A DNA stretch of 64,000 bases. Origin: Mycolicibacterium goodii. Its GTDB lineage: Bacteria > Actinomycetota > Actinomycetes > Mycobacteriales > Mycobacteriaceae. The stretch covers positions 2,542,001 to 2,606,000 of the forward strand of contig NZ_CP012150.1 in NCBI RefSeq assembly GCF_001187505.1, read 5' to 3'. Position numbers and translations under genes: made by a program. Below, piece after piece: positions 6,144 through 22,350 of this stretch. Positions within the stretch are counted from its first letter, which is position 1; every line of letters begins with the position of its first letter. The notes below the pieces were generated by a model, which saw only the letters and a list, made by a program, of their open reading frames with translations, was not told the origin of the DNA and did not search any database.

Positions 6144-6856
6144 TCCGGATCCGGATGGTCAATCCGAACACCACCACATCGATGACCGAGGGGATCGGCC
6201 GCTGCGCCAGTGCAGTGGCCGGTCCCGATACCGAGATCACCGCCGTCACCTCACAATTCGGGCCACCGTCCATCGAGAGCCACTACGACGAGGCGATGAG
6301 CGTTCCCGGACTGCTCGACGCGATCGCCGACGGCGAGCGGGCCGGGGCCGACGGGCATGTGATCGCGTGCTTCGGCGATCCGGGACTCGACGCGGCGCGT
6401 GAGATCGCAACCGGTCCGGTGATCGGCATCGCCGAGGCCGCGATGTACGCCGCGAGCCACCTGGGCCGGGGTTTCTCGGTGGTGACGACGCTCGCGCGCA
6501 CCACGGGCCGGGCCGCCGAACTTGCCGAACGCTATGGCATGCAACGCTTCTGCCTCGGCATCCATGCGTGCGAGATCCCGGTACTCGACCTGGAGACCGA
6601 TCCGACCGCGCAGAAGGTGGTCACCGAGGCGTGCCGCGAGGCCGTCGAACACGACCGGTCCGACGCGATCGTGCTGGGGTGTGCGGGCATGGCGCAGATG
6701 TGCCGGGCCATCTCCGAGGAACTCGGCGTTCCCGTGGTCGACGGCGTGAGTGCGGCGACGCTCACGGTGCAGTCACTCGTGGCGATGGGGCTCAGCACCG
6801 GCAAGCGCGGCGAGTACGCGACACCGCCGGCCAAGCGGTACATCGACCGGCGCTAG
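6140..6856 (+). CDS. Allantoin/hydantoin racemase (Asp/Glu racemase superfamily)
   Basis: 238 aa, normal for the HyuE/HpxA family. The two catalytic cysteines are visible in ACFGDPGLDAAREI and VLGCAGMAQMCRAI, and the N-terminal IRMVNPNTTTSMT is the family's substrate-binding loop. It should interconvert the enantiomers of allantoin (or other 5-substituted hydantoins) so that a stereospecific allantoinase can use both. Translation is probably coupled to the permease: the ATG overlaps the permease stop by four bases. Its stop codon (6854-6856) overlaps the stop of the convergent allantoinase gene (6853-6855), so the two operons meet with no terminator between them. Confidence 0.9.
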   Translation: MIRIRMVNPNTTTSMTEGIGRCASAVAGPDTEITAVTSQFGPPSIESHYDEAMSVPGLLDAIADGERAGADGHVIACFGDPGLDAAREIATGPVIGIAEAAMYAASHLGRGFSVVTTLARTTGRAAELAERYGMQRFCLGIHACEIPVLDLETDPTAQKVVTEACREAVEHDRSDAIVLGCAGMAQMCRAISEELGVPVVDGVSAATLTVQSLVAMGLSTGKRGEYATPPAKRYIDRR

Positions 6857-7767
6857 CTGGGGTGCACTTGCCGCCAGTGCTCGGCGATCTCGATCCGCCG
6901 AGCCAGCCACACCCGGTCATGGGACTGCACGTGATCCAGGAAGCGTTGCAGTGCGGCGGTTCTCGCGGGACGTCCGACCAGCCGGCAGTGCAGGCCGACC
7001 GAGAGCATCTTGGGTGCACCGGAAACCCCCTCGGCGTAGAGCACGTCGAACGCGTCGCGCAGATGCGCGAAGAACTCCTCGCCGTTGGCGAAGCCGGCCG
7101 GTGAGGCGAATCGCATGTCGTTGGTGTCGAGCGTGTAGGGCACCACGAGGTGGTCGGTGCCGTTGACGGCCACCCAGTACGGCAGATCGTCGGCGTAGGA
7201 ATCGGAGTCGTACACGAATCCGCCGTGCTCGACGACCAGTTCACGCGTGTGCGGCGAGTCGCGGCCGGTGTACCAGCCCAGCGGTGCGGAGCCGGTGAGC
7301 TCTTCGAGGATCCGCACCGCCTCGGCCATGTGCTCACGTTCGGTGTCGCGGTCGGTCAACTGATAGGACTTCCACCGCAGCCCGTGGCAGGCGATCTCGT
7401 GGCCCAGTTCGGTGAACGCCGCGACCGCCTCGGGATTGCGCTGCATGGCCCGGGCCACCGCGAAGATCGTCAGCGGTATGCCGCGCTGCTCGAAAACCCG
7501 CAGCACACGCCACAATCCGGCCCGGGAGCCGTACTCGTAGAGCGATTCCATGCTCATGTGCCGGTTGCCGAACGCCTCGGCGGGCGTCATCTCCGACAGG
7601 AACGTCTCCGACGCCGGATCGCCGTCCAGCACGCAGTTCTCCGCGCCCTCTTCGTAGTTGAGCACGAACTGCACCGCGATCACCGCGTCGCCGGGCCACC
7701 GTGGATTCGGGGGCGTACGACCGTAGCCCACCATGTCTCTCGGATAGCTGTCCCTCGGATTGCTCAT
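6853..7767 (-). CDS. puuE: PuuE-type allantoinase (polysaccharide-deacetylase fold)
   Basis: 304 aa. It has the NodB/polysaccharide-deacetylase fold and PuuE landmarks: PRDMVGYGRTPPNPRWPG at the N-terminus, FGNRHMSMESLYEYGSRAG, the helix GHEIACHGLRW, then WYTGRDSPHTRELV and YDSDSYADDLPYW. PuuE proteins hydrolyse allantoin to allantoate without the metal site of classical AllB allantoinases. The start ATG (7765-7767) overlaps the stop of the allantoicase gene (ATGA), so alc and puuE are translationally coupled and form one minus-strand operon. The coding frame stays open far upstream, but that part is only the complement of alc. Confidence in function is high because substrate, transporter, racemase and next enzyme are all adjacent. 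Confidence 0.9.
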   Translation of the reverse strand: MSNPRDSYPRDMVGYGRTPPNPRWPGDAVIAVQFVLNYEEGAENCVLDGDPASETFLSEMTPAEAFGNRHMSMESLYEYGSRAGLWRVLRVFEQRGIPLTIFAVARAMQRNPEAVAAFTELGHEIACHGLRWKSYQLTDRDTEREHMAEAVRILEELTGSAPLGWYTGRDSPHTRELVVEHGGFVYDSDSYADDLPYWVAVNGTDHLVVPYTLDTNDMRFASPAGFANGEEFFAHLRDAFDVLYAEGVSGAPKMLSVGLHCRLVGRPARTAALQRFLDHVQSHDRVWLARRIEIAEHWRQVHPS

Positions 7768-8726
7768 GCCAGTTCTCCGTACAGTCGCAGGCGCGCGAGG
7801 CCCCCGTCGGGGTAGATGTCCAGACGCACCTGCGACACCACATCGGCGACGTCGACGAGGAAGCGGTGCCGGGTATCGGGCAGCAACGCGGTGCGCGGCA
7901 ACACCTGCACCCACTGCCCGTCGGCGCGCAACCCGCTCAAGGCGGCCTCGCCCGGGCAGTTGCCCACGAAGTAGGAGGTGTCGATCTCGGCCAGCCGCAC
8001 CCGTCCGGCTCCGGCCAGACGGATTCGCACCCAGTCGTTTCCACCGTCGCGACGACGCGCGGTCTCCCAGCCGTCGCCCATCACCTGGGCCAGGCCCGGG
8101 AAGATCAGGTTGTGCGGCGAGCTGTAGAAACGGTTCGAGCAGTCCAGTACCAGCGCGCCGTTCTCCAGGGCCGCGAGATCCAGCGGCCCGATCCCCATCA
8201 ACCGCTTGTCGGGGCGGCCTTCTCCGTGCACGCGCAGGCGCGCCACGCCGCCGTCGGGATAGATGTTGAGCCGCACGTGTGTCCAGCGGTCCTCGGATCG
8301 CACCTCGAAGTTGTTGCGGGTGTCGCCGTAGACGCGGCAACGTTCGATGATCGGCGTCCAGTCGGCGCTGGTGGCCAGTTGCTCCGCGGTGGGATAACCG
8401 TCGGCCTCGATGGCGTCGACCGACACCTCGGGCGGGTAGTTGCCCTTGAACCATGCGGTGTCGACGACGATGCCGCGGATCACCCCGGGCACGCCGAGCC
8501 GCACGATCGCCGAATCGTGCCCGGGCTGACGGCGCCTGCGGGTCTCCCAGCCGTCGTAGATCTGACCCTTGTGTCCGAACGTCGCCGGTCGGTACTGCGA
8601 CGGCCCGGGGGAGATCAGGTTCTCCTTCTCGGCGAACGTCTCGTCGTTGGCCCACACCACCGCGCCACCCAACGACCGCAGGGCCAGATCGGGTAGCCAG
8701 ATGAAATCCGGTGGGGTTTCGGTCAT
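7764..8726 (-). CDS. alc: Allantoicase
   Basis: 320 aa from ATG 8726 (a GTG lies just before it). Two repeats of the allantoicase jelly-roll domain are visible. Each starts with a DGWETRRRR(Q/D)GG or GH motif (DGWETRRRRQPGHDSAIVRLG near residue 60 and DGWETARRRDGGNDWVRIRLAG near 220), continues with a D-T-(A/S)-x-F-x-G-N-x-P-x-x-(V/A) strand (DTAWFKGNYPPEV, DTSYFVGNCPGEA) and ends in YPDGG(V/L)ARLR. The enzyme hydrolyses allantoate to ureidoglycolate and urea. It is first in the minus-strand operon with puuE. Upstream lies the wreck of a DUF6986 gene that belongs to the same pathway neighbourhood in other actinobacteria. Confidence 0.93.
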   Translation of the reverse strand: MTETPPDFIWLPDLALRSLGGAVVWANDETFAEKENLISPGPSQYRPATFGHKGQIYDGWETRRRRQPGHDSAIVRLGVPGVIRGIVVDTAWFKGNYPPEVSVDAIEADGYPTAEQLATSADWTPIIERCRVYGDTRNNFEVRSEDRWTHVRLNIYPDGGVARLRVHGEGRPDKRLMGIGPLDLAALENGALVLDCSNRFYSSPHNLIFPGLAQVMGDGWETARRRDGGNDWVRIRLAGAGRVRLAEIDTSYFVGNCPGEAALSGLRADGQWVQVLPRTALLPDTRHRFLVDVADVVSQVRLDIYPDGGLARLRLYGELA

Positions 8727-10328: not shown

Positions 10329-10377
10329 AGCTGTCCAGCCTAGAACCGGCGCGGAACCGCGATCCGGCGCGCCCGGC

Positions 10378-10391
10378 TGCGATCGATTGCA
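10378..10391. promoter_or_regulatory. LacI operator upstream of lacI (one mismatch)
   Basis: TGCGATCGATTGCA differs in one base from the palindrome TGCAATCGATTGCA found twice between the aldehyde dehydrogenase and ABC operons. It lies in the 139-base gap between dapC and the divergent lacI gene, 77 bases before the lacI start. The sequence type (14 bases with a central CG) is the normal operator form of LacI-family proteins. Likely role: autoregulation. Confidence 0.7.
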
Positions 10392-10467
10392 CCATGGCGC
10401 GTGGCGCCGCGGGCAGCGCGGTAACCTCGTGCGATGAGCCCAACAGCGCGGGCTCGCTGGAGGGTCT

Positions 10468-11502
10468 GTGGGGAAGCCGAACACGCCGAGACGGGTGACG
10501 ATCGACGACGTGGCGCGCCTGGCCGAGGTGCACAAGGCCACGGTGTCGAGGGCGCTCAATGCCCGGACCCGCGATCAGGTCAACGCCGAGACGCTCAAAC
10601 GCGTCAAGCGGGCCGCGCGTCAACTCGGCTACGTTCCCAACGCGATGGCGCGCAGCCTGCGCACCAGCCGCTCGATGACCATCGGGGTGATCATCCCCGA
10701 CTTGATGAACCCGATCTTCCCGCCCATCATCCGCGGTATCGAGTACGTCCTGCAGGCCCAGGGCTACACCGTGCTGATCGCCAACACCGATTCTCACGAC
10801 GACGTGGAGATCTCGGTGTTCGAATCGATGCTGCAGCGCCGCGTGGACGGATTCATCCTCGCCACCGGCCGCCTGGACGACCAGCCGGTGGTCAACGAGG
10901 CGGCCGCGGCGGAGGTGCCGGTGGTGCTGGTCAACCGCGGCGCGGGCATCGGCGACTACCCGCTGGTGGGCGGTGACAACGCGCGCGGCATCGAGTTGGC
11001 CGTCGAGCATCTCGTCGAACTCGGGCACCGCCGCATCGTGCACGCGGCCGGCCCGCTGAACTTCTCCACCACCCGCACCAGGGCCGAGGCGTTCGAGACG
11101 GCGGCGACCAAGGCGGGTGTGGCGCATCAGACCGTGCACGCGTCGGCGCTGACCATCGACGCGGGTGTCGAAGCAGCCGAACATCTGCTGGCGCACAACG
11201 AGGTTCACCCGACCGCACTGGTCGCGGGCAACGATCTGGTGGCGCTCGGGCTGATCCGGCGGCTGCGCGCCGAGGGGTTGCACTGCCCGCAGGACGTGTC
11301 GGTGGTCGGATTCAACGACATGCCGTTCGCCGAGGACTTCTCGCCGCCGCTGACCACGGTGCACATGCCTCTGCGCGAGATCGGCGCCGAGGCCGCCCGG
11401 CTCATGCTGCGCGGCATCGAGGTCGGTGAGCAGGAGGCCGTGACGCTGACGTTGCCGGTGTCGCTGGTGGTGCGCAGTTCCACCGGGCCGGCCAAAACCT
11501 AA
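10468..11502 (+). CDS. LacI-family transcriptional regulator of the adjacent catabolic island
   Basis: 344 aa from GTG 10468. The N-terminal HTH is canonical: VTIDDVARLAEVHKATVSRALN, then the hinge helix region GYVPNAMARSLRTSRS. Residues ~65-340 are a periplasmic-binding-like effector domain starting IGVIIPDLMNPIFP and with FNDMPFAEDFSPPLTTV at the usual place. Palindromes of LacI operator type occur upstream of this gene (10378-10391) and twice in the 277-base gap between the divergent aldehyde dehydrogenase and ABC operons (15096-15109, 15261-15276). A half-site (CGATTGCAG) lies directly after its stop. The natural reading is a local repressor released by the island's substrate; the ligand is unknown. 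Confidence 0.92.
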   Translation: MGKPNTPRRVTIDDVARLAEVHKATVSRALNARTRDQVNAETLKRVKRAARQLGYVPNAMARSLRTSRSMTIGVIIPDLMNPIFPPIIRGIEYVLQAQGYTVLIANTDSHDDVEISVFESMLQRRVDGFILATGRLDDQPVVNEAAAAEVPVVLVNRGAGIGDYPLVGGDNARGIELAVEHLVELGHRRIVHAAGPLNFSTTRTRAEAFETAATKAGVAHQTVHASALTIDAGVEAAEHLLAHNEVHPTALVAGNDLVALGLIRRLRAEGLHCPQDVSVVGFNDMPFAEDFSPPLTTVHMPLREIGAEAARLMLRGIEVGEQEAVTLTLPVSLVVRSSTGPAKT

Positions 11503-11511
11503 TCCCTACAA

Positions 11512-11520
11512 CGATTGCAG
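11512..11520 (+). promoter_or_regulatory. LacI operator half-site before the next gene
   Basis: CGATTGCAG matches exactly the right half of CTGCAATCGATTGCAG. The left half (CCCTACAA) is poor, and a one-base gap would be needed to improve it. It overlaps the TTG at 11515 and ends four bases before the ATG at 11524, so binding there would block the start region. Confidence 0.35.
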
Positions 11521-11523
11521 GTC

Positions 11524-12426
11524 ATGGATCACATCACGCTCGGCGTCTTCAGCCCATCGGTCCTGCTCGACGTCGCCCGGGACACCGGACGGCTCACCGA
11601 CGCCGGGCTGCGGGTGCGTGACGTTCCGGTACCGTCCTCACCCGCGCAGTTCACCTCGCTGCGCGACGGCGAGTTCGACGCCGTGTTCACCAGCCCGGAC
11701 AACGTTCTCGCATACCGGTTCCTGCCCGCGAACCCGCTCGGGGAACTGCTCGACGTCGAGATCGTCGCGGGCATCGACCGCGGCCTGCGGTTGTGTCTGG
11801 CGGCGCGCCCGGATGTCACCGGGCTCAGCGAGATCGCGCGCGGGCGGCTCGGGGTCGACGTGCCGAACTCGGGGTTCGCCTTCGTCGGCTACGCGCTTCT
11901 CGACGAACTCGGGATCTCCCGTGACGATCTGGAGATCGTCACGCTGGGCTCGACACCCAAGCGCGCCAAGGCGCTGTCCGGCGGCGGCTGCGATCTGACG
12001 GTGCTCAACGCCGGCAACGAACTGAGCGCGCGGGCCGACGGTTGCCTGCTGCTCGCCGACGTCAGCCGGCTGGGACCCTATCTGGGCACCGTGGTGGCCC
12101 GGCTGCGTGACGGCAACGGTGCGGCTGCGGTGGACCGGCTGGTCGGGGTTCTCGGTGACACCGCCAGGGCCATACGTTGCGGGGCACTCGATGCCGAGGC
12201 CGCGGCGTCCGCGGCGCGCCTGCTAAATCTCGACGCCGAGCTGGCCGCCGAACATGTCGGGGTGCTGAGGAGTCCGCTGCACGGGCTGATCGGCGACGGC
12301 GCGGTGGACGTCGCCGCGCTGGGCACCCTCGTCGCGTTGCGCAGGCGGTTCCTGCCGATGCCCGAACTCGACGGGCTCACCGAACGGTTCGACGTGGTGG
12401 TGCGTCCGGACGCGCTGGTGGGCTGA
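11524..12426 (+). CDS. Periplasmic-binding-protein-like protein (NMT1/PhnD type) without signal peptide
   Basis: 300 aa from ATG 11524 (TTG 11515 would add three residues). The chain starts ITLGVFSPSVLLDVARDTG, then DGEFDAVFTSPDNVLAYRF and later LGVDVPNSGFAFVGYALL and GGCDLTVLNAGNELSARADG. This is the order of an NMT1/SsuA-like type II binding protein that scans for a small ligand. No signal peptide or lipobox is present, so it is either cytoplasmic (a ligand sensor or enzyme such as a THI5-like protein) or its export signal has been lost. It sits 21 bases after lacI and is probably cotranscribed with it. Function is not known. Confidence 0.7.
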   Translation: MDHITLGVFSPSVLLDVARDTGRLTDAGLRVRDVPVPSSPAQFTSLRDGEFDAVFTSPDNVLAYRFLPANPLGELLDVEIVAGIDRGLRLCLAARPDVTGLSEIARGRLGVDVPNSGFAFVGYALLDELGISRDDLEIVTLGSTPKRAKALSGGGCDLTVLNAGNELSARADGCLLLADVSRLGPYLGTVVARLRDGNGAAAVDRLVGVLGDTARAIRCGALDAEAAASAARLLNLDAELAAEHVGVLRSPLHGLIGDGAVDVAALGTLVALRRRFLPMPELDGLTERFDVVVRPDALVG

Positions 12427-12428
12427 GG

Positions 12429-13556
12429 TCACTCGCGCACCACGTAGCGGGCGCGGGCCACCGTGGTGACGGCCGCGTAGCCCACCGACACCACCGCCGC
12501 CAGCGTGAACAGCGCACCGAAATGCCCTGCGCCTGCGGCGATGTTGCCCGCCGCGGTCCCGGCGGAGGTTCCGACGAACAGGGCGATGGAGAACAGCGAC
12601 ATCCCGATCGCGCGGCTGTCGGCGGCCGCATCGGTCATCCAGGTCTGCATGGTGGTGTGACCGCACGCCCACGCCACCCCGAGCAAAATCGCCGCGGCGA
12701 GCACCGTCCCCAGCGAGATCCGCACGGCCACCGCGACATACGCGCCGATGATGGCAACGCCGGCGAGCAGCATCAACACCCAGGTCGGCCACCGGTCCAG
12801 GATCAGCTTCATCACCTGGCTCGCGGCCACGACCGCCGCGCCGAACATCGCGGTCGCCGCACCCGCGGCCAGCACCGAGGCCCCGGTGGTCTGCAGGGCC
12901 ACCGCGAGATAGTTGAAAACCCCGATCAGCAGCACCCCCTCCGCGACGGTGAAGGCCAGGATCGCCAGGGCCCACCGATTGCCCGCCAACCTGTGCAGTG
13001 ACGGGACGAGTCGCTCCCTGGCGCTGGTGTCCGACTCCCGCAACCGGGTGAACCCGAGACCGAGGGCCAGCGCGGACACCGCGATCACCACGTAAGCCCA
13101 ACGCCAACCCCACCATTGGGCGATGACGCCCGCGCCCACCGTTCCCGCGGCCAGGCCGAGTGCGATGGCGGCCGCGAGGTTGGCGGTGGCGACGGCTCGC
13201 TGCCGGATGGTCAGGGTCTCCCCGTAGTAGATGAGCACCGTGGTGATGGTCGCCGCGAACGCCGCCGCCGACACCGCCCGGGTGATGCCGTAGCTGACCG
13301 GCTCGTGGGTGAACGCCGTTGCCAGGTTGGCCAATCCGGCCAACGCCGTGGAGATGATCAGGATGCGGACCCGGCCGTAGCGGGCGGCGAGGGTGCTCCA
13401 CGCCAGCTGGAACGCCGCATAGGCCACCGCGTACACCGTCAGTGAATGGCCGATCGCCTCGATCGGGACACCGAAGTCCGCCGCGATCACCGGGATGAGC
13501 GGCGCCATCACCGAACGGTCGACCAGTGATACGAAGGCGCCGATGATCAGAATCAT
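12429..13556 (-). CDS. MFS transporter in operon with aldehyde dehydrogenase
   Basis: 375 aa, about 11-12 hydrophobic helices. The first helix begins directly at the start (MILIIGAFVSLVDRSVMAPL) and the loop AARYGRVRILI after helix 2 is the MFS motif A region. The short length and absent N-terminal tail are slightly unusual. The start ATG overlaps the stop TGA of the aldehyde dehydrogenase gene (13553-13556), so translation is coupled and the two form one operon. Its stop lies two bases from the stop of the convergent binding-protein-like gene. It could import or export a product of the island's pathway; the substrate is unknown. Confidence 0.85.
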   Translation of the reverse strand: MILIIGAFVSLVDRSVMAPLIPVIAADFGVPIEAIGHSLTVYAVAYAAFQLAWSTLAARYGRVRILIISTALAGLANLATAFTHEPVSYGITRAVSAAAFAATITTVLIYYGETLTIRQRAVATANLAAAIALGLAAGTVGAGVIAQWWGWRWAYVVIAVSALALGLGFTRLRESDTSARERLVPSLHRLAGNRWALAILAFTVAEGVLLIGVFNYLAVALQTTGASVLAAGAATAMFGAAVVAASQVMKLILDRWPTWVLMLLAGVAIIGAYVAVAVRISLGTVLAAAILLGVAWACGHTTMQTWMTDAAADSRAIGMSLFSIALFVGTSAGTAAGNIAAGAGHFGALFTLAAVVSVGYAAVTTVARARYVVRE

Positions 13557-15058
13557 CGAGGGGGCCAGACCGGCACCTCTCCACGGCCGGACCGGAACCG
13601 GACCGCCTTGGACCGGACGAACTCGCGCAGTGTCTCCGGGGCGTTCTCGCGGCCGAACCCGCTGCCCTTCTGACCCCCGAACGGCGAACCCAGGAACGAG
13701 CGGCGCATGTAGTTGTTGACGAAGACCATGCCGGCCTCCAGGCGGCCCGCGATATGCCAGGCCGCCGCCTCGTCACGGGTGATCATCGCGGCGGTCAGTC
13801 CGTAGGCGGTGCCGTTGGCGATCTCGATCGCCTCGTCCAGGGTCGAGTAGCGCATCAACAGGGCGATGGGGCCGAAGATCTCCTCCTGACCCGCGGTCGA
13901 ATCCGGGGCCACATCGGCCAGCACGGTGGGCGCCACCCAGTAGCCGTCGGCGAACGGGCCCTCGGTGGGCACGCTGCCCTGCCCGACGATGCGGGCGCCC
14001 TCGTCGAGCGCGGTCTGCAGGTAGGCGAGCACCCGGTCGCGGTGTGTGGCGTCGACCATCGGGCCGACGTCGGTGCGCGGGTCAAGGCCGTCACCGACCA
14101 CCAGGGCGGTCGCGGCGGCGGTGAACCTCGCCTCGAACTCGTCATAGACATTGTCGTGCACCAGGATTCGTGCCGTCGACGTGCACGCCTCGCCCTGGTT
14201 GTAGAACATCGCCTCGATCGACACGGTGACGGCGAGATCCAGATCGGCGTCCGGGAACACCATCAGCGCGTTCTTGCCGCCGAGTTCCATCGTCGCGTAG
14301 GTGAGGTGCTGCGCCGCCGATCGGAGCACCTTCCGGCCGGTGGCGGTGGCGCCGGTGAAGCTGATGCGCTCGACACCGCGATGGCCGGCCAACGACGCGC
14401 CGGCCGCCAGGCCGGGGACCGCGTTGAGCACACCCGGCGGCAACACCTCATTGGCGATCTCGACGAGCCGCAACACCGTCAGCGGTGCCTGTTCACCCGG
14501 CTTGATCACCACGGTGTTGCCGGTGATCAGCGCCGGTGCCCCCTTCTTGGCGAAGTGGATGGGCGGCCAGTTGAACGGCAGGATGCACGCGACGACGCCG
14601 TAGGGTTCGTAGATCACCCTGGTCTCGATTGGACCCTGGTCGATGATCTCGCCGGGCAGGCTGTCGCCGAGGCCGGAGAAGAACTCGAAGCAGTTCGACG
14701 AGAACGCCACGTCGTTGGCGAGGGCATCGCGTCTGGGTTTGCCGTTCTCGCGGGACACCAGTTCGCCGAGTTCGTCGGCATGCGCGCGGATGCGGTCGGC
14801 GACCTGTTTGAGGTAGGCGCCGCGTTGCCGTCCGGTCAGCGCCCGCCAGGCGGGCAGCGCCGCGCGGGCAGACTGCACGGCCCGGTCGACGAGCGCGTCG
14901 TCGGCCGAGACGACGGTGGCCAGCACCGTCGCGGTCGAGGGCTCGACGACCTCGAATGTGGGCAGGTCATCCGGCAGAACGAAGTGGCCGTCGATGAACG
15001 CACCCCATTCGGTGCGGGCCAGCGGCGGCCGCAGGGCCGCGGTGTGGGTGATGGTCAT
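13553..15058 (-). CDS. NAD(P)-dependent aldehyde dehydrogenase
   Basis: 501 aa, full length for the ALDH superfamily. Catalytic set complete: Asn163 in PFNWPP, Lys186 in VIKPGEQAP, Glu258 in MELGGKNA and the nucleophile Cys292 in NQGEACTSTAR. The motif EEIFGPIA and the C-terminal PFGGQKGSGFGRE are also intact. It oxidises an aldehyde to the acid in the cytoplasm; the exact aldehyde is unknown. First gene of the minus-strand operon with the MFS gene. Its promoter region carries two LacI-type palindromes, one 38 bases before its start, so it should be co-induced with the divergent ABC operon. The upstream frame remains open to 15337 but overlaps the operators, so ATG 15058 is preferred. Confidence 0.93.
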   Translation of the reverse strand: MTITHTAALRPPLARTEWGAFIDGHFVLPDDLPTFEVVEPSTATVLATVVSADDALVDRAVQSARAALPAWRALTGRQRGAYLKQVADRIRAHADELGELVSRENGKPRRDALANDVAFSSNCFEFFSGLGDSLPGEIIDQGPIETRVIYEPYGVVACILPFNWPPIHFAKKGAPALITGNTVVIKPGEQAPLTVLRLVEIANEVLPPGVLNAVPGLAAGASLAGHRGVERISFTGATATGRKVLRSAAQHLTYATMELGGKNALMVFPDADLDLAVTVSIEAMFYNQGEACTSTARILVHDNVYDEFEARFTAAATALVVGDGLDPRTDVGPMVDATHRDRVLAYLQTALDEGARIVGQGSVPTEGPFADGYWVAPTVLADVAPDSTAGQEEIFGPIALLMRYSTLDEAIEIANGTAYGLTAAMITRDEAAAWHIAGRLEAGMVFVNNYMRRSFLGSPFGGQKGSGFGRENAPETLREFVRSKAVRFRSGRGEVPVWPPR

Positions 15059-15095
15059 GAGCGCTCCGGAAGGGTCGGCGGGTGACACGGGATTC

Positions 15096-15109
15096 TGCAA
15101 TCGATTGCG
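15096..15109. promoter_or_regulatory. LacI operator, aldehyde dehydrogenase side
   Basis: TGCAATCGATTGCG: the twelve inner bases GCAATCGATTGC (15097-15108) are a perfect palindrome identical to the core of the site at 15261-15276. It lies 38 bases upstream of the aldehyde dehydrogenase ATG, where a repressor would block the promoter. Confidence 0.8.
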
Positions 15110-15260
15110 GATGACTATAGACCGAGGTCCTTCCGCGGGGAAGGGTTCGCCCCGGGCCGGTCCGGCCCCTTGTTGTGTTGCACGACGTAGCTGACCGGGA
15201 GTTCGCCGACGGCCGGCCGTGGGAACTGTTGACACCTCCGGTGCGCTGTGTGACGATTCA

Positions 15261-15276
15261 CTGCAATCGATTGCAG
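15261..15276. promoter_or_regulatory. Perfect LacI operator, ABC-operon side
   Basis: CTGCAATCGATTGCAG is a perfect 16-base palindrome with the central CG typical of LacI-family operators. It is 60 bases upstream of the binding-protein start at 15336 and 165 bases from the twin site at 15096, so a looped repression complex between the divergent promoters is possible. Confidence 0.85.
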
Positions 15277-15335
15277 GTGATGTGAGCAACACCGCGCTAC
15301 CGCGTTGGGCAATCGGTCTGACAGAGAGGTTGGAC

Positions 15336-16547
15336 ATGCGTTTTCACCATGTATTTCGCGCGTTCGCCGCGACGGCGGCGATCGCGTTGACCGTTTCGGC
15401 GTGTTCGGCGGACAGCGGCGGCGACAGCGACACCCTGCGGATCGGTGCGTCGCTACCGCTCACCGGTGAGTTCAGCCAGGGTGGGCTGGACACCCAGCGG
15501 GGCTACGAGACCTGGGTCGAGATGACCAACGAAGCCGGTGGGCTGCTCGGCAAGAAGGTCGAGATCGTCATCAAAGATGATGCGACACAACAGGAAACGG
15601 CCGTCAGCAACTACAACAACCTGATCTCGCAGGACAAGGTGAACCTGCTGCTGGGCAGCCAGTCCTCGCTGCTGAACATCCCGGCGTCGGCCATCGCGGA
15701 GAAGAACAAGATGCTGTTCGTCTGCCCGTCCTGCGGCTCACCCGACATGTTCAACCGCGGCTTCGAGTACATCTTCTTCTCGCAGCAGGCCATCGCCACC
15801 GACCAGGCCAAGGTGTTCGCCCAGTGGATCGCCGCGCTGCCTCCCGAGCAACGGCCCAAGACCGCGGCCTATCCGACGCTCGACGACCCGTTCGCGGGTC
15901 CGGTGGTCGAGGGCGCCGAGAAGATCCTGTCCGCCGCGGGCATCCGGACGGTGTACAGGGACCAGTACCCGGCCACCACCAAGAACTTCGACTCGGTGGT
16001 CAACGCCATGCGCGATGCCGGCGCCGAGATCGTGGTGCAGGGTGCGCAGTTCGAGGACGGCGTCAACATGATCCGTGCGATGAACCGGGCCAACTACCAG
16101 CCCACCATCCTGTACCAGAGCAGTTCGCCCACCTACGGCCAGCAGTATCTCGACGCGGTCGGGCCCCAGAACGCCGAGGGCGTGTTCTTCTCCTCCAGCT
16201 ACAGCCCGCTGTCGGACACCCCCCAGAACAAGGAGTTCGTCGAGCGCTTCGAGAAGAAGTTCGGCCAGAGCCCGCCCGAGGACGCCGCGGACGGTTTCGC
16301 CGCCGGGCAGGTGCTCAAGGCGGCCGTCGAGGCCGTCGGCTCGATCGACGACCAGGCGAAGCTCGCGGACTGGTTGCACAACAACAGCGTCGACACGCTG
16401 CTGGGCACATTGAGCTGGAACGCCGACGGCAGCCCCAAGGGCGACTTCCTGGTCGGCCAATGGCAAGCCGGCGTCTCCCAGGTCGTGCTCCCCACCGCGG
16501 TCGCGACGTCCGACCAGATCATGCGCTGGCGCGGCGGCGACCTGTGA
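15336..16547 (+). CDS. Branched-chain-type ABC transporter substrate-binding lipoprotein
   Basis: 403 aa. N-terminal signal peptide with lipobox V-S-A-C; the lipidated cysteine is Cys23. The mature part is a type I periplasmic-binding fold (LIVBP/Peripla_BP_6): LRIGASLPLTGEFSQGG at its start, then EVIVKD-like EIVIKDDATQQETAVSNYNN and LLLGSQSSLLN. Such proteins bind amino acids, amides, urea or aromatic acids outside the membrane. GAGAGG 9 bases before the ATG is the ribosome site. It is the first gene of a six-gene operon (binding protein, LivH, LivM-LivG, LivF, dehydrogenase, M24 hydrolase) behind a perfect LacI operator, so it captures the inducer-related substrate. Confidence 0.92.
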   Translation: MRFHHVFRAFAATAAIALTVSACSADSGGDSDTLRIGASLPLTGEFSQGGLDTQRGYETWVEMTNEAGGLLGKKVEIVIKDDATQQETAVSNYNNLISQDKVNLLLGSQSSLLNIPASAIAEKNKMLFVCPSCGSPDMFNRGFEYIFFSQQAIATDQAKVFAQWIAALPPEQRPKTAAYPTLDDPFAGPVVEGAEKILSAAGIRTVYRDQYPATTKNFDSVVNAMRDAGAEIVVQGAQFEDGVNMIRAMNRANYQPTILYQSSSPTYGQQYLDAVGPQNAEGVFFSSSYSPLSDTPQNKEFVERFEKKFGQSPPEDAADGFAAGQVLKAAVEAVGSIDDQAKLADWLHNNSVDTLLGTLSWNADGSPKGDFLVGQWQAGVSQVVLPTAVATSDQIMRWRGGDL

Positions 16548-16589
16548 TCCGACGGCGCTGCGTCACAACCGGTTAGGAGCACGAAACCC

Positions 16590-17471
16590 ATGAGTTCCCT
16601 TGTCCAAACGCTCATCCTGGGCCTGCTGGTCGGTGCGCTCTATGCACTGATGGCCTCCGGCCTGACCCTGATCTTCGGGGTCATGCGGGTGATCAACCTC
16701 GCCCACGGCGCGTTCGCCGTGCTGGCGGCATTCCTCACCTACACGCTGTGGCGCAACCTCGGGCTGGACCCACTGCTGTCCATCCCGATCGTGATGGCGG
16801 TGATGTTCGCCTTCGGCTGGCTGGTCTACGTCCTGGTCATCCGGCACGTGCGCGGTGCGCACGTCACCATGACCGTCCTGGCCACCTTCGGCGTCGCGCT
16901 CATGCTCGAAGGCATCATGGGCTTCATCTGGGGCAACACCTCATCGACGGTGGTGGTGTCCTACACCGACGCGTCGATGTCGTTGGGCTCCATCTACATT
17001 CCGCAGGCGATGCTCATCGCCGCGATCATCGCGGTGGTGGTGATGGGTGGGCTCTACCTGCTGCTCAATCACACCTGGGCGGGCCGCGCCATCCGCGCCG
17101 CGTCGTCCAATGAGAACGGCGCGCTGCTGGTGGGTGTCAGCGTCGCGACCATCGCCGCGCTCACCTTCTCGATCGGCGTGGCCACCCTCGGGGCAGGCGG
17201 GGCGATGCTCTCCACCATCTACCCGTTCCTGCCAGGCACGCACTACCAGTGGATCGCCCGGCTGTTGGCCATCGTCGTGCTCGGCGGCCTGGGCAGCCTG
17301 CCCGGCGCGGTGCTCGGTGCGCTGGTGATCGGCGTCGGCGAGATCGCGGCCACCGCCTACGTCGGCGCGGCCTGGCCGGTGGCGGTGCCGTTCCTGGTCA
17401 TCATCATCGTGCTGATCACCCGGCCGCAGGGCCTGATGGGCACCCGGCTGCGAGAGGACGCGGTGGCATGA
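16590..17471 (+). CDS. ABC transporter permease, LivH type
   Basis: 293 aa with about eight hydrophobic helices. It starts SSLVQTLILGLLVGALYALMASGLTLIFG, the classic LivH N-terminus, followed by VMRVINLAHGAFAVLAAFLTY. The coupling-helix region (AIRAASSNENGALLVGV) and LGGLGSLPGAVLGALVIG near the end are conserved. It forms half of the membrane channel together with the LivM domain of the next gene. Its stop overlaps the next start (ATGA at 17468-17471), so stoichiometric translation is likely. Confidence 0.93.
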   Translation: MSSLVQTLILGLLVGALYALMASGLTLIFGVMRVINLAHGAFAVLAAFLTYTLWRNLGLDPLLSIPIVMAVMFAFGWLVYVLVIRHVRGAHVTMTVLATFGVALMLEGIMGFIWGNTSSTVVVSYTDASMSLGSIYIPQAMLIAAIIAVVVMGGLYLLLNHTWAGRAIRAASSNENGALLVGVSVATIAALTFSIGVATLGAGGAMLSTIYPFLPGTHYQWIARLLAIVVLGGLGSLPGAVLGALVIGVGEIAATAYVGAAWPVAVPFLVIIIVLITRPQGLMGTRLREDAVA

Positions 17472-19324
17472 CGACCCAAACCCCGCTCAGGGCAAAGCTT
17501 CTCGATCCCACCCTGCACACGTGGGCCGCCCGCGCGGTGATCGCGGCCGCGGCCGCGGTGATCCTGCTCTTCCCGCTGTCGCCCAGCATCTCCGCGCAGA
17601 ACATCGTCATCCTGTCGCTGGTGCTGGCCATCGGCGCGAGCGGACTCAACATCATCACCGGGTTCACCGGCTACCTGTCGCTGAGCCAGGGCGCCTTCGT
17701 CGGTATCGGCGCATACACCGGGGCCATTCTGTCCAAACGTTTCCCCGACGTCGACCCCTTCCTGTGGGCGCCGTTGGCCGGCGTGGTCGCCGCCGTCGTC
17801 GCGATGCTGCTCGGCCTGGTCACCTACCGGTCCAGGGGCCCGGCGTTCGTCATCATCACCGTGGCGTTCCTGTTCCTGATCCAGTTCGTGGCCATCGAAT
17901 GGGTGCCGGTGACCAACGGCACCTCCGGGCTCACCCTGCCGTTGCCGGATTGGCCCGACGCATGGGGCAACTGGCCGTTCCATCTGGCGCTCGTCGCGTT
18001 GCTGGCCGCGTCGCTTCTCATGACGTGGTGGATCCGGCGCACCAAGTTCGGCATGGGGCTGATCGCCATCCGCGAGGATGAGGGCAAGGCCGGCACCATC
18101 GGCGTCAACGCCCCCGTCTACAAACTGCTGGCGTTCGGACTGTCCGCGCTGTTCGTGGGCATGGCGGGTTCGGTGTACGGCTACTACCTGTCCTTCGTCG
18201 ACCCGATCGGCATGTTCTCCATCATCACCAGCGCGCTGATCGTGCTCGCGGTGATCCTCGGTGGTCGCGGCACCCTGTGGGGTCCGGTGTTGGGCGCGTT
18301 CATCATTCAGCCGGTCAACATCTACGCCAACCAGGCCTTCGGCGGCGGCAACGCACGCCTGGTCCTGTTCGGAGGCCTGCTGGTACTGCTGGTCATCCTG
18401 CTGCCCAAGGGCATCCTGCCGACGCTGGCGTCGCTCATCGAGAAGGCCAGGACCAGGGGCACGGTCGGGCTTTCCGGCGCCCGGCTCAACCCGCTGGACA
18501 GCCCGCTGGTGGTCAACGAGATCCGCAGGCCCGAACCGAGCGGGCGCACCCTGCTCGAAGTGCGGGGCCTGCACAAGAGTTTCGGCGGCAACCACGCCGT
18601 CAACGACTGCAGCTTCACCGTTCCCGAGGGCTCGATCACGGCACTGATCGGTCCCAACGGTTCCGGCAAGACCACGGTGTTCAACCTGATCTCGGGCACC
18701 ATGACCCCGGACCGGGGCGAGATCCTGCTGGGCGGGGAACACATCGAGAAGGGCTCCCCGTGGTCGCGGGCCCACCACGGCCTGGGCCGCACCTTCCAGA
18801 TCACCCGCCTGTTCCGGGAGATGACGGTGCTGGAGAACGTCGTCGCGCCGCTGCGCAGCTTCTCGGTCGGACAGCTGGGACTGGGTGCGGTCAGCGGCTC
18901 GGAGGCCGCACGGGCAGAAGAACTCCTGAGCTTCGTAGGCATGTCGGCCTACCGCGACGCGCGCGCGGGCGCGCTGTCCTACGGTCAGCAGAAGCTGGTG
19001 GAACTGGCGCAGGTGCTCATGCTCGATCCGAAACTGATCCTGCTCGACGAGCCCGCAGGCGGTATCAATCCGACGCTGATCGAACGGATGGGGGACCTGA
19101 TCCGCGAACTCAACGCGGACGGCAAGACCTTCCTGCTCGTCGAACACAACATGCCGTTCGTGGTCGGGTTGTGCGACCCGATCCGGGTGCTGGCCCGCGG
19201 CGCGGTGATCGCGCAGGGCACGCCCGAACAGATCCAGAAGGACCCGCTGGTGCTCGACGCCTACCTGGGCGACGACTACCTGCTGACGGCGCCGTCCAAG
19301 GTCGCGGAGAGGAACCCGGCATGA
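17468..19324 (+). CDS. LivM permease fused to LivG ATPase
   Basis: 618 aa in one frame. Residues ~1-325 are a LivM-type permease ([24 protein letters not shown] is its signature, [15 protein letters not shown] [16 protein letters not shown] the coupling region). After a linker of ~30 residues rich in charged residues, ~360-615 are a LivG ATPase: Walker [11 protein letters not shown]-loop near [14 protein letters not shown], signature LSYGQQKL and Walker [11 protein letters not shown] followed by the H-loop VEHNM. In most bacteria these are separate genes; fusions occur in some proteobacteria and actinobacteria. No frameshift is needed. Start and stop overlap both neighbours (ATGA). Confidence 0.93.
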
Positions 19325-20091
19325 TCAGGCTCGAAGGGGTGGTCGCCGGCTACGGCGGCGGCAACGTGCTGCAAGGTGTCGACCTGGAGGTCGGCGCGGG
19401 CGAGCTGGGCTGCATCGTCGGCCCCAACGGCGCGGGCAAGTCCACCGTGCTGCGCGCCGTGAGCGGGCTGCTGAAACCCAGCTCGGGCCGGATCATGCTG
19501 GACGGCAAGAACATCGCGGGCCTGGCGCCGGATGAGGTGCTCGGCTGCGGGGTCACCCAGGTGCCGCAGAGCGACGGGCTGTTCCCGACGCTCACGGTCA
19601 AGGAGAACATCCTGATGGGCGCCTACGTGATCCGCCGCAGGCGGGCGCTGGTCAAGCAGCGCTACGACGAGGTGCTCGACATGTTCCCGCTGGTGCGCGA
19701 CAAGACCGGGATCCGGGCGGGCAACCTGTCCGGCGGCCAGCGCCGCATGGTGGAGTTCGCCCGCTCGCTGATGCTCGACCCGAAGCTGGTGCTGCTCGAC
19801 GAACCCTCACTCGGGCTGGACCCCAAGTCGCTCACCGTGATCGATGAGGCCGTGGCGATCATGCGCGCCAACGGCAAGGCCATCCTGATGGTGGAACAGA
19901 ACGTCCGGTTCGGTCTGCGGATGGCCTCCACCGGCATCGTCATGGAGAGCGGCCGCGTGCTGCTCACCGGTCCGGCCACCGACGTCCTCAACAACCCCGA
20001 GATCGCCGACCTGTACTTCGGCGGCGCGGTGCACGCCGAATCCGCCCCCGCCGCTTCACCGTCGGGCGACGCAGCGCAACCCACGGCCTGA
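19321..20091 (+). CDS. ABC transporter ATPase, LivF type
   Basis: 256 aa. Walker [10 protein letters not shown] at ~34-42, the Q-loop in [17 protein letters not shown], signature [15 protein letters not shown], Walker [12 protein letters not shown] and H/Q-switch region VEQNVRFGL (the usual histidine of the H-loop is Gln here, a substitution typical of LivF). A C-terminal tail of about 20 residues ([18 protein letters not shown]) is an Ala/Pro-rich extension not needed for the fold. It completes the importer with the LivG domain of the preceding fusion. The ATG overlaps the preceding stop. Confidence 0.93.
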
Positions 20092-20143
20092 TCAGCTCCT
20101 GGCACGCCCGGAACACAACACAAAGAAGAGGAACTGAAACGAT

Positions 20144-21088
20144 ATGTCCCCCACAGACCTGAAGATCGGCTGGATAGGTGCCGGCCGCATGGGAGCCCAG
20201 CTCGTCCTGCGGCTGCTCGACGCCGGTTACGACGTCACGGTGTACAACCGCACCGCCGCCAAGGCGGAGCACCTGGCCGAGCGCGGCGCATCGGTGGTGA
20301 GCCGGCCGGTCGATCTGGCGGACCGGGACCTGGTGTTCTCGATGGTGTCGTCGTCGAAGGACCTGGAGCAGGTGATGCTCGGAGAGGGTGGGCTGCTGAC
20401 CGGTACACAGTCACCGCGCATCATCGCCGACTCCTCGACCGTCTCCGCCGACGCCAGCACGCTGATCCGGGAGGCCGCCAACGCGCGCGGCAGCGACTTC
20501 CTGGCCGCCCCGGTCAGCGGCAACCCGAAAGTCATTGCCGCAGGCAAGCTCACGGTCGCGGTGTCCGGACCGCGCGAGGTGTTCGAATCGATCGAACCGG
20601 TGCTCGCCGTGTTCGGGCGCAGTGTCACATATGTCGGCGAAGGCGAGGTCGCCCGCCTGGTCAAGATCGCGCACAACCTGATGCTGGGCGTGGTGACCCA
20701 GTGCCTGGCCGAGATCACCGTGCTGGTCGAGAAGGGCGGGGTGAGTCGCGCCGACTTCCTGGCCTTCCTCAACGACTCGGTGATGGGATCGGTGTTCACG
20801 CAGTACAAGTCGCCGGCGTTCGTGAACCTGGACTTCACGCCCACCTTCACGATGGAGTTGCTGCAGAAGGACTTCGACCTCGGCCTTGAGGCGGCGTATC
20901 AGCTCAAGTCGCCGATGCCGATCGCATCTGCCACCCGGCAGATCGTCGCGCAGGCCGTCGGCGCGGGCATCGGCATCGAGGAGGATTTCGCGACGCTGCT
21001 GCTGGAAGTGGCCCGCGGCGCCGGTGTCGAACTCAAGCCCGAGAACGTGACCGTCGACGACGGCCTGAACCCGCCGGTGCACTCGTGA
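20144..21088 (+). CDS. 3-hydroxyisobutyrate dehydrogenase-like beta-hydroxyacid dehydrogenase
   Basis: 314 aa. Rossmann motif IGWIGAGRMG at residues 8-17 (GxGxxG) is followed by VYNRTAAKAEHL, which suggests NADP rather than NAD because of the Arg after the second strand. Substrate loop APVSGNPKVIAAGKL (family consensus has GG after the Ser; here GN) and the catalytic lysine, Lys174, in VKIAHNLML are present. The family oxidises beta-hydroxy acids (3-hydroxyisobutyrate, tartronate, 3-hydroxypropionate, glycerate) to semialdehydes. Fifth gene of the ABC operon, which suggests the imported compound, or the product of the next gene's hydrolase, is turned into a beta-hydroxyacid. The paired aldehyde dehydrogenase across the divergent promoter would take a semialdehyde. 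Confidence 0.87.
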   Translation: MSPTDLKIGWIGAGRMGAQLVLRLLDAGYDVTVYNRTAAKAEHLAERGASVVSRPVDLADRDLVFSMVSSSKDLEQVMLGEGGLLTGTQSPRIIADSSTVSADASTLIREAANARGSDFLAAPVSGNPKVIAAGKLTVAVSGPREVFESIEPVLAVFGRSVTYVGEGEVARLVKIAHNLMLGVVTQCLAEITVLVEKGGVSRADFLAFLNDSVMGSVFTQYKSPAFVNLDFTPTFTMELLQKDFDLGLEAAYQLKSPMPIASATRQIVAQAVGAGIGIEEDFATLLLEVARGAGVELKPENVTVDDGLNPPVHS

Positions 21089-22350
21089 CCGCGCTGGTGG
21101 CTCCTCCGGTGGCCGCGCGTCCGCTCGGTGCGCCCGGCCACATGGGGGTGGATTACGAGGAGCGTGTGGATTTCGCGCGGTTGCGGGAGTACCGGATCGG
21201 TCGGGCCAAGGCGGCGTTGGAGGCCAGTGGGTGTGGGGCGTTCCTGCTGTTCGACTTCTACAACATCCGCTACACCACCCAGACCTGGATCGGGGGTGCG
21301 CTGGGCGACAAGATGATCCGGTACTGCCTGCTGACCCGTGACGGGGATCCGATCCTGTGGGATTTCGGCTCGGCCGTGCGGCATCACAAGCTGTACTCGC
21401 CGTGGCTGCCGCAGGAGAACTGGCGGGCCGGGTTCCTCGGTTTCCGGGGTGCGGTGGCCCCGGATGCGGGACTGATGCGGGATGCGGTCACCGAGATCAA
21501 GAGCATCCTGGTCGAGGCTGGCGTGGCCGGCGAGCCGGTGGGTATGGACATCGTCGAGCCGCCGTTCCTGTTCGAGATGCAGCGTCAGGGGCTCGAAGTC
21601 GTTGACGCGCAACAGAGCATGCTCGATGCCAGGGTGATCAAGTCCGTTGACGAGATCATGCTGCTCAACCAGGCCGCGGCCATGGTCGACGGGGTGTATC
21701 AGGACATCGTGGAGGCGCTCAAGCCCGGTGTGCGGGAGAACGAGATCGTCGCACTGGCCAACAAGCGGCTCTATGAGCTGGGCTCGGATCAGGTCGAGGC
21801 GGTCAACGCGATTTCGGGGGAGCGGTGCAATCCGCATCCGCACAACTTCACCGACCGCATCATCCGCCCGGGTGATCAGGCGTTCTTCGACATCATCCAC
21901 TCCTACAACGGGTATCGGACGTGCTATTACCGCACCTTCGGCGTGGGCAGCGCGACGCAGAGCCAACGCGACGCCTACAAGCAGGCCCGGGAGTGGATGG
22001 ACCGCTCGATCGAGGCGATCCGTCCCGGTGGCGGTTCCGATCAGATCGCCCGGTTGTTGCCCAAGGCGCAGGATTTCGGTTTCGAAAACGAGATGGCGGC
22101 GTTCGGTCTGCAGTTCGCGCACGGGCTGGGGCTGGGTCTGCATGAGCGGCCGATCATCTCACGGCTGAACTCGCTGGAGAACCCGTTGGAGATCCAGGCG
22201 GGCATGGTGTTCGCGATGGAGACCTACTGCCCGGCCTCGGACGGCACGTCGGCCGCGCGGATCGAGGAGGAGGTCGTGGTCACCGACGACGGCCCGGTGA
22301 TCCTCACCAAGTTCCCCGCCCAGGAACTGTTCGTCGCCAACCAGTACTAA
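21085..22350 (+). CDS. M24-family (creatinase/prolidase-fold) hydrolase with an altered metal site
   Basis: 421 aa. The N-terminal creatinase domain (~30-165) contains FLLFDFYNIRYTT and a DxxEP-type DIVEPP; the C-terminal pita-bread domain (~185-405) is clear. Four of the usual metal ligands can be seen: Asp269 (FFDIIHSYNGY), His346 (AHGLGLGLHERP), Glu379 (FAMETYCP) and a glutamate in ARIEEE (394-396). The position of the second aspartate, in the normal xDxxRTF, is Cys280 (RTCYYRTF). Loss of that ligand is seen in creatinase-like and ectoine-hydrolase (DoeA) branches, which do not need a metal pair. It also resembles DddP (DMSP lyase) around the start (ARLREYRI) and end. Its stop ends the operon. 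Substrate not known. Confidence 0.8.
   Translation: MTALVAPPVAARPLGAPGHMGVDYEERVDFARLREYRIGRAKAALEASGCGAFLLFDFYNIRYTTQTWIGGALGDKMIRYCLLTRDGDPILWDFGSAVRHHKLYSPWLPQENWRAGFLGFRGAVAPDAGLMRDAVTEIKSILVEAGVAGEPVGMDIVEPPFLFEMQRQGLEVVDAQQSMLDARVIKSVDEIMLLNQAAAMVDGVYQDIVEALKPGVRENEIVALANKRLYELGSDQVEAVNAISGERCNPHPHNFTDRIIRPGDQAFFDIIHSYNGYRTCYYRTFGVGSATQSQRDAYKQAREWMDRSIEAIRPGGGSDQIARLLPKAQDFGFENEMAAFGLQFAHGLGLGLHERPIISRLNSLENPLEIQAGMVFAMETYCPASDGTSAARIEEEVVVTDDGPVILTKFPAQELFVANQY

Follow-up and report, generated by a model that had tools for sequence, protein, structure and literature searches.

A predicted LacI-controlled import and catabolism regulon of Mycolicibacterium goodii and its M24-fold protein with a cysteine at a metal-ligand position

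What is switched by the repressor predicted to read a repeated palindrome in the genome of the soil-type mycobacterium Mycolicibacterium goodii? The question is posed by a stretch of 64,000 nucleotides from this organism (contig NZ_CP012150.1, positions 2,542,001 to 2,606,000; hereafter the window), in which an initial annotation had proposed that one LacI-type protein governs a divergent aldehyde dehydrogenase (ALDH)-MFS operon and a six-gene row encoding an ABC transporter, a dehydrogenase (here assigned to the 3-hydroxyisobutyrate dehydrogenase (HIBADH) family) and an M24-fold protein. Within the reach of sequence evidence the LacI-regulon reading holds up: in all likelihood one local repressor (LacI1) switches this gene set via the repeated palindrome. 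The switch itself is ordinary and the regulon is of a well-known kind; the interest lies in what is switched, namely a widespread M24 subfamily with a cysteine in place of a metal-binding Asp, often found alongside one set of dehydrogenases.

The palindrome and its conservation with the regulator

The three palindromes and the half-site of the initial annotation were found at their positions when the coordinates were checked in the window: CTGCAATCGATTGCAG at operator O4 has no mismatch, CTGCAATCGATTGCGG at O3 has one, CTGCGATCGATTGCAC at O1 has two (Table 1), and the half-site CGATTGCAG lies at 11512-11520. With up to three mismatches the window contains three matches where 0.13 are expected, and none of 100 shuffles reaches three. 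The motif also passes the genome-wide search that had been proposed for it, since of the four sites with up to two mismatches in the whole genome (7,105,933 bases) three are those in the window, while the fourth, at 5,326,142, falls within a 389-aa open frame at the helix-turn-helix of another LacI-type protein (family read by eye). At up to three mismatches the genome has 24 sites as against nine with a reversed-pattern control. The form of the motif, an even dyad with a central CG, is that of LacI-family operators, as had been suggested; the main text of a survey of this family gives the same form for 1173 of 1303 regulators (PMC4052901).

Among 396 genomes of the genus, examined with the best match per genome, LacI1 has a match at cut-off in 24: the window's own, 14 at 75-89% identity and nine at about 50%. 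Of the 15 LacI1 loci outside this genome, 11 (214,510 bases) enter the motif counts; left aside were a rearranged locus with two sites (L087) and three short contigs with four sites, one and none (L089, L090 and L091, respectively). These 11 orthologous loci contain 28 copies of TGCAATCGATTGCA if one mismatch is allowed and 38 if two are, the shuffle means over 20 rounds being 0.0 and 0.9. All 38 sites fall at just four places, ahead of lacI (8), of the gene corresponding to that at 11524 (9), of the ALDH or MFS gene (10) and of livK (11). Chance occurrence of the palindromes is ruled out by the window shuffles, the genome-wide counts and the counts in the orthologous loci. With the exception of one genome that is taken up below, the operators are conserved together with the regulator across species, and their presence ahead of lacI, livK, the 11524 gene and ALDH (with MFS in its stead in loci that lack it) supports, on comparative sequence evidence, the proposal of one LacI repressor for about ten linked import and catabolism genes. 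ALDH is a variable member of this set, being missing from three of the 11 loci. Judging by the alignment, the "half-site" is an operator lacking one base: a full-length site such as CTACAATCGATTGCAG takes its place in nine of the 11 other aligned species, the window copy being one base shorter. Because it sits right ahead of the 11524 gene, that gene belongs to the regulon too.

The operators adjoin elements that are conserved in the manner of promoters. On the livK side ATTCAC together with the operator core is identical in all 12 aligned species, TTGAC upstream of it is kept in 12 and TTGACA in 11 of them; on the divergent side ACTATA stands beside the operator in 10 of the 12 aligned regions. 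A repressor on O3- and O4-type sites would cover the start regions of both divergent promoters. Just ahead of the livK start lies a further block of 26 bases, GGCAATCGGTCTGACAGAGAGGTTGG (15308-15333), which shows no difference among the 12 aligned species, even at third positions, although the window's frame is open there. Its conservation perhaps reflects translational control; a search for an RNA element in the livK leader (15050-15450) gave no Rfam match up to E 0.1.

Table 1. Operators, promoter-like boxes and genes of the predicted regulon, in window positions
Feature	Position	Strand	Remarks
Operator O1	10377..10392		Ahead of lacI; predicted autoregulation; site recognisable in 11/12 aligned species, not in G372, mostly TGCGAACGATTGCA-like
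lacI (LacI1), LacI/GalR-family repressor	10468..11502	+	PF00356, PF13377
Operator O2 remnant CTACAACGATTGCAG	11506..11520		One base short; ahead of the 11524 gene
11524 gene, substrate-binding-protein-fold protein (NitT/TauT/SsuA/Thi5 type), 300 aa	11524..12426	+	
MFS transporter	12429..13556	-	PF07690
Aldehyde dehydrogenase (ALDH)	13553..15058	-	PF00171
Operator O3, leftward promoter	15095..15110		Adjoins conserved ACTATA (TATAGT on the minus strand)
Promoter-like boxes of the six-gene operon, TTGACA-17-GACGAT	15229..15257	+	Predicted from conservation
Operator O4 ATTCACTGCAATCGATTGCA	15261..15276		Three bases past the -10-like box; identical in 12/12 aligned regions
livK-type substrate-binding protein	15336..16547	+	PF13458; lipobox LTVSAC read by eye
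livH-type permease	16590..17471	+	PF02653
livM-livG fusion (permease + ATPase), 618 aa	17468..19324	+	PF02653, PF00005, PF12399 in one protein
livF-type ATPase	19321..20091	+	PF00005
HIBADH-like oxidoreductase	20144..21088	+	PF03446, PF14833
M24-fold enzyme	21085..22350	+	PF00557; Cys280 at the metal-ligand Asp position

The gene layout that had been read from the open frames was likewise recovered, with lacI, the divergent ALDH and MFS genes and the six-gene row at 15336-22350. LacI1 combines the helix-turn-helix (PF00356, 51.9 bits against a cut-off of 27) with the periplasmic-binding-protein-like domain (PF13377, 135.1 bits against 26.5). The six-gene row looks like one operon because three of its junctions overlap by four bases and the remaining two gaps are of 42 and 52 bases; the fused length of livM-livG is also found in orthologous mycobacterial loci. 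The good model of the 11524 gene product (pLDDT 93.8) has a fold shared by binding proteins of the NitT/TauT/SsuA type and by three enzymes, Thi5, MqnD and DszB. As no signal peptide is visible in it by eye, this protein is probably cytoplasmic and may be an enzyme or a sensor. When LivK is aligned with the LIV-binding protein, a Ser and an acidic residue are kept and a Thr is not, these three being the residues that we take to hold the alpha-amino acid there; the alignment is too weak to use.

The M24 subfamily and its genomic partners

Alignment places D269, H346, E379 and E394 of the M24 protein in the presumed metal site, and at the position of the second Asp stands Cys280, in 106 of 106 relatives. 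These relatives make up all but five of the 111 members of the cluster, the five having been excluded because of their length, and comparison of the last 250 residues leaves 105 distinct sequences. Thus the site departs by this Cys from the five residues (Asp, Asp, His, Glu, Glu) that we take to form the metal site of Xaa-Pro dipeptidases (M24B). The same Cys is kept from mycobacteria to a haloarchaeal relative, the one protein in which the position was looked at among the relatives at 28-38% identity; of 39 records of relatives on plasmids eight were aligned. The public plasmid records examined label the subfamily only as peptidase. As the structural model is mediocre (pLDDT 69.8), no active-site geometry was drawn from it and the ligand mapping rests on the alignment.

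No family model names a substrate, because ALDH, HIBADH and M24 score above Pfam cut-offs and below those of all NCBIfam equivalogs listed: ALDH reaches the cut-off of none of its 25 best equivalogs and the HIBADH-like protein is under that of all 18 families listed. The admission in the initial annotation that the imported compound could not be named therefore still stands. A description of the pathway was not found in the titles or abstract beginnings of the open-licence literature searched.

The neighbours of M24 genes were counted in 80 named loci, the best 80 of at least 568 confirmed stretches from the genome collection, with a rough caller of open reading frames and single-linkage clusters at 38% identity, within about 10 kb of M24; several of these loci end at contig ends and one gave no M24 call. 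HIBADH is a neighbour in 63 of them and the E1 component of a 2-oxoacid dehydrogenase in 47, followed by LacI and ALDH (37 each), LivH (24), the E2 component (22), and VOC and 11524-type proteins (21 each). In some loci, two Rokubacteria records among them, no such partner of M24 was called. In M. chubuense the row reads lacI, 11524-type gene, MFS, ALDH, liv genes, HIBADH, M24, CMD-like, semialdehyde dehydrogenase, GntR, VOC, E1 fusion and E2, and both there and in Aquiluna the two pathway halves lie within one stretch. Five Roseobacter-group plasmids carry, in one row, SDR, M24, E1 alpha, E1 beta, a lipoyl/E2-type protein, semialdehyde dehydrogenase and E2. Transporters near M24 vary among LIV, MFS, dipeptide-type, ribose-type and tripartite forms (the last three labels, like that of the YtcJ-type hydrolases in the fetched loci, given by eye). 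This varying front end on a constant core suggests that several parent compounds feed one intermediate. A similar palindrome accompanies the HIBADH-M24 pair beyond mycobacteria in Diaminobutyricibacter, Aeromicrobium and Reyranella loci, and nine of the 21 strict sites in the 80 loci coincide with the start called for HIBADH or M24 (rough starts, without a shuffle control).

On a plasmid of Paenarthrobacter sp. R1 (L214:11181-18449) the row is RidA, M24, oxidoreductase, SDR and lpdA, a few genes from the flavin reductase SulR. A link to sulfonamides was considered for this plasmid and dropped, a term search in the texts of PMC10873849 and PMC10903153 as available having given no mention of a peptidase or RidA.

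In M. goodii itself E1, E2, VOC, GntR and ALDH genes, 48-65% identical to the M. chubuense set, are located at 2.931-2.938 Mb, 0.37 Mb from the window's operon. The E1 fusion (2,934,377-2,936,527) is 64% identical to that of M. chubuense and is adjoined by VOC, GntR, semialdehyde dehydrogenase and E2 genes. Part of the pathway probably lies outside this regulon, at 2.93 Mb beside the GntR gene. Beside the same E1/E2 genes (L204:13221-16065) are alcohol-dehydrogenase-like and amidohydrolase-like genes, which we take to resemble the propane/acetone monooxygenase cluster of fast-growing mycobacteria.

A second M24 copy occupies an unrelated locus at 4,953,954-4,955,186 (G000:C1; L020:3924-5189), with two base differences in 1,225 (99.76% over 1,231 aligned bases). 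The first codons of the two copies differ and the identity runs from about codon 12 to the stop codon; either gene conversion of a relative already in place or copying in the very recent past would fit this pattern. It is preceded by another LacI gene (LacI2), an MFS transporter and an alcohol dehydrogenase, and is followed by an apparent truncated transporter gene (by eye). This locus has the sites ATGCAAACGATTGCAC, ATGCAAACGATTGCTC and ATGCAAAGGTTTGCAC, which resemble the palindrome, the last of them just ahead of the M24 copy. LacI2 is found at cut-off in two of the 396 genus genomes, this one and G336; in the latter it adjoins GntR, VOC, E1 and E2, and this ties the second LacI to the same pathway.

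Ureide-pathway genes occur near both M24 copies. Upstream of the regulon (window 6856-8726) there are an allantoinase PuuE and an allantoicase, both above NCBIfam cut-off; at 4.94 Mb (L019:5627-10341) AllB and ureidoglycine aminohydrolase are above cut-off and an allantoin-permease-like gene below it, with an integrase-like fragment (by eye) near this second group at L019:11812-12498. A link of the M24 loci to allantoin is treated as coincidence because, of all proteins called in the 124 loci fetched, only those from the organism's own second locus and from L095 include relatives of the six query proteins.

A proposed pathway and its rivals

LacI-family proteins act as dimers. We propose that a LacI1 dimer would sit on the even, central-CG palindromes that overlap the starts of two divergent promoters, leftward for ALDH-MFS and rightward for livKH-MG-F-HIBADH-M24, and would also occupy the sites ahead of its own gene and the 11524 gene. 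Control would be negative, LacI1 leaving the DNA when the substrate or an intermediate binds to it, and the freed genes would then import a small polar compound via the LIV-type ABC and MFS transporters. Inside the cell the HIBADH-family dehydrogenase, the M24-fold enzyme, which would cleave the compound or an intermediate, and the semialdehyde dehydrogenase would convert it, presumably in this order, before the 2-oxoacid dehydrogenase (E1/E2) encoded apart at 2.93 Mb finishes the product to acyl-CoA. Alongside E1/E2 the 2.93 Mb set encodes another semialdehyde-dehydrogenase-like protein, a VOC protein and a regulator of the GntR type. Taken as a whole, local LacI1 control of import and breakdown with E1/E2 finishing apart is the best explanation and one we consider likely. 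The compound that releases LacI1 from O4 would be the substrate or an intermediate, so that a reporter screen might identify the pathway where sequence by itself does not suffice.

Several observations weigh against this explanation. In G232 the transporter-HIBADH-M24 operon is present at 83% DNA identity, without lacI and ALDH at the locus, and keeps the three operators ATGCAATCGATTGCAG, CCGCAATCGATTGCAC and CTGCAATCGATTGTAG; hence some other regulator can read the motif. The nearest LacI of that genome is a paralogue with 50% identity; the 19.5-kb stretch that holds it also contains a perfect site, and this paralogue may have taken over control. Further, LacI was called near M24 in just 37 of the 80 named loci. 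A plain consensus promoter scan flagged nothing, the TTGACA-17-GACGAT boxes included, and the promoter prediction is drawn from conservation. Finally, the 20-kb stretch at 2.93 Mb has no palindrome with up to three mismatches, and joint control of the whole pathway is thus not supported. That the palindromes are instead read mainly by LacI2, with a minor part for LacI1, would agree with the similar sites at the LacI2 locus; this is improbable, as the TGCAATCGATTGCA sites follow LacI1 in 11 loci whereas LacI2 reaches the cut-off in just two of the genomes of the genus examined.

As to the chemistry, the strongest competitor is catabolism of an N-heterocycle or cyclic amide, in which a variable front end would open the ring and the core of HIBADH, M24, semialdehyde dehydrogenase and E1 would take an amide or enamine to acyl-CoA. 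Molybdenum hydroxylase subunits and FrsA-like hydrolases near some loci, RidA, amidase, flavin reductase and LLM oxidoreductase on plasmids, and the rank of 2-hydroxymethylglutarate dehydrogenase as second-listed solved relative of the HIBADH protein are in keeping with it. We nevertheless hold it to be possible but doubtful, because such partners are in the minority (XDH-like in 11 and FrsA-like in 23 of the 80 named loci), none of them occurs in the window's own regulon and the sugar-type ABC importers on the Roseobacter plasmids point elsewhere. An elimination like that of DddP, in which a sulfonium or betaine acid would yield acrylate or 3-hydroxypropionate for oxidation by HIBADH and ALDH, is suggested by DddP, which heads the NCBIfam matches as well as the solved-structure matches of the profile; it is unlikely, given a score of 100.9 bits against a cut-off of 600 (NF043017) and His, Trp or Tyr in nine of nine aligned proteins at the position of Asp377 (named by mutant entry 4s01), which we take to be catalytic in DddP, as we take the DddP Asp aligned with Cys280 to be a metal ligand.

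Peptide use, with M24 as an ordinary Xaa-Pro dipeptidase in an operon that imports and splits proline-containing dipeptides, is very unlikely: the invariant Cys stands where the Pyrococcus prolidase has what we assume to be its second metal-ligand Asp, the best peptidase model (PepQ) scores 74.5 bits against a cut-off of 630, and the frequent partners of M24 are dehydrogenases and E1/E2. Least credible of all are branched hydroxy acids of the pantoate or pantothenate kind, with E1/E2 acting on the 2-oxo acid, for ketopantoate-reductase-like genes stand beside the module in very few loci (a cluster of four proteins, one at 138.1 bits where the cut-off is 141.35), the amidase known from that pathway belongs to another type, and a literature search gave nothing useful. 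Cut-offs and residues together rule out M24 as DddP, prolidase or ectoine hydrolase.

The case is about evenly balanced for a larger proposal, that the M24 proteins with Cys280 constitute a new enzyme family whose activity is new for the fold and whose metal site probably contains the Cys. With HIBADH and E1/E2 they would make up a catabolic pathway, so far undescribed, that many Actinomycetota and Proteobacteria (as well as metagenome-assembled genomes carrying the labels Acidobacteria and Eremiobacterota) would use on some compound abundant in soil and water. The same Cys is also seen in M24 relatives from Rokubacteria records and haloarchaeal plasmids; the import half would in mycobacteria be run by this LacI, and each of the two LacI paralogues of M. 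goodii stands beside a near-identical M24 copy.

Comparison with known systems

Among M24-fold enzymes, the DMSP lyase DddP differs from the present protein at the metal-ligand Asp and at Asp377, which is not kept here, and its family cut-off is far from reached. The ectoine hydrolase DoeA/EutD is also distant (58.3 of 613 bits with TIGR02993 and 54.9 of 575 with its second NCBIfam model), and creatinase shares the fold and a weak sequence match (E 2e-10). The oxidoreductase has both HIBADH-type Pfam domains in common with tartronate semialdehyde reductase and 3-hydroxyisobutyrate dehydrogenase, and thus belongs to the superfamily; it differs from the nearest equivalogs, 2-hydroxy-3-oxopropionate reductase and 3-hydroxyisobutyrate dehydrogenase, with 160.6 bits against 340.75 and 140.8 against 291.6. 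The local LacI regulons described in the main text of PMC4052901, in which the string "mycobacteri" does not occur, differ from the one described here in that the genes controlled here are not recognisable as sugar genes. They agree with it in the even, central-CG palindrome, in the site ahead of the regulator gene and in the linkage of transport and catabolism genes, and O1, O3 and O4 fall within the -140 to -30 zone, which according to the same text holds more than 75% of LacI-family sites.

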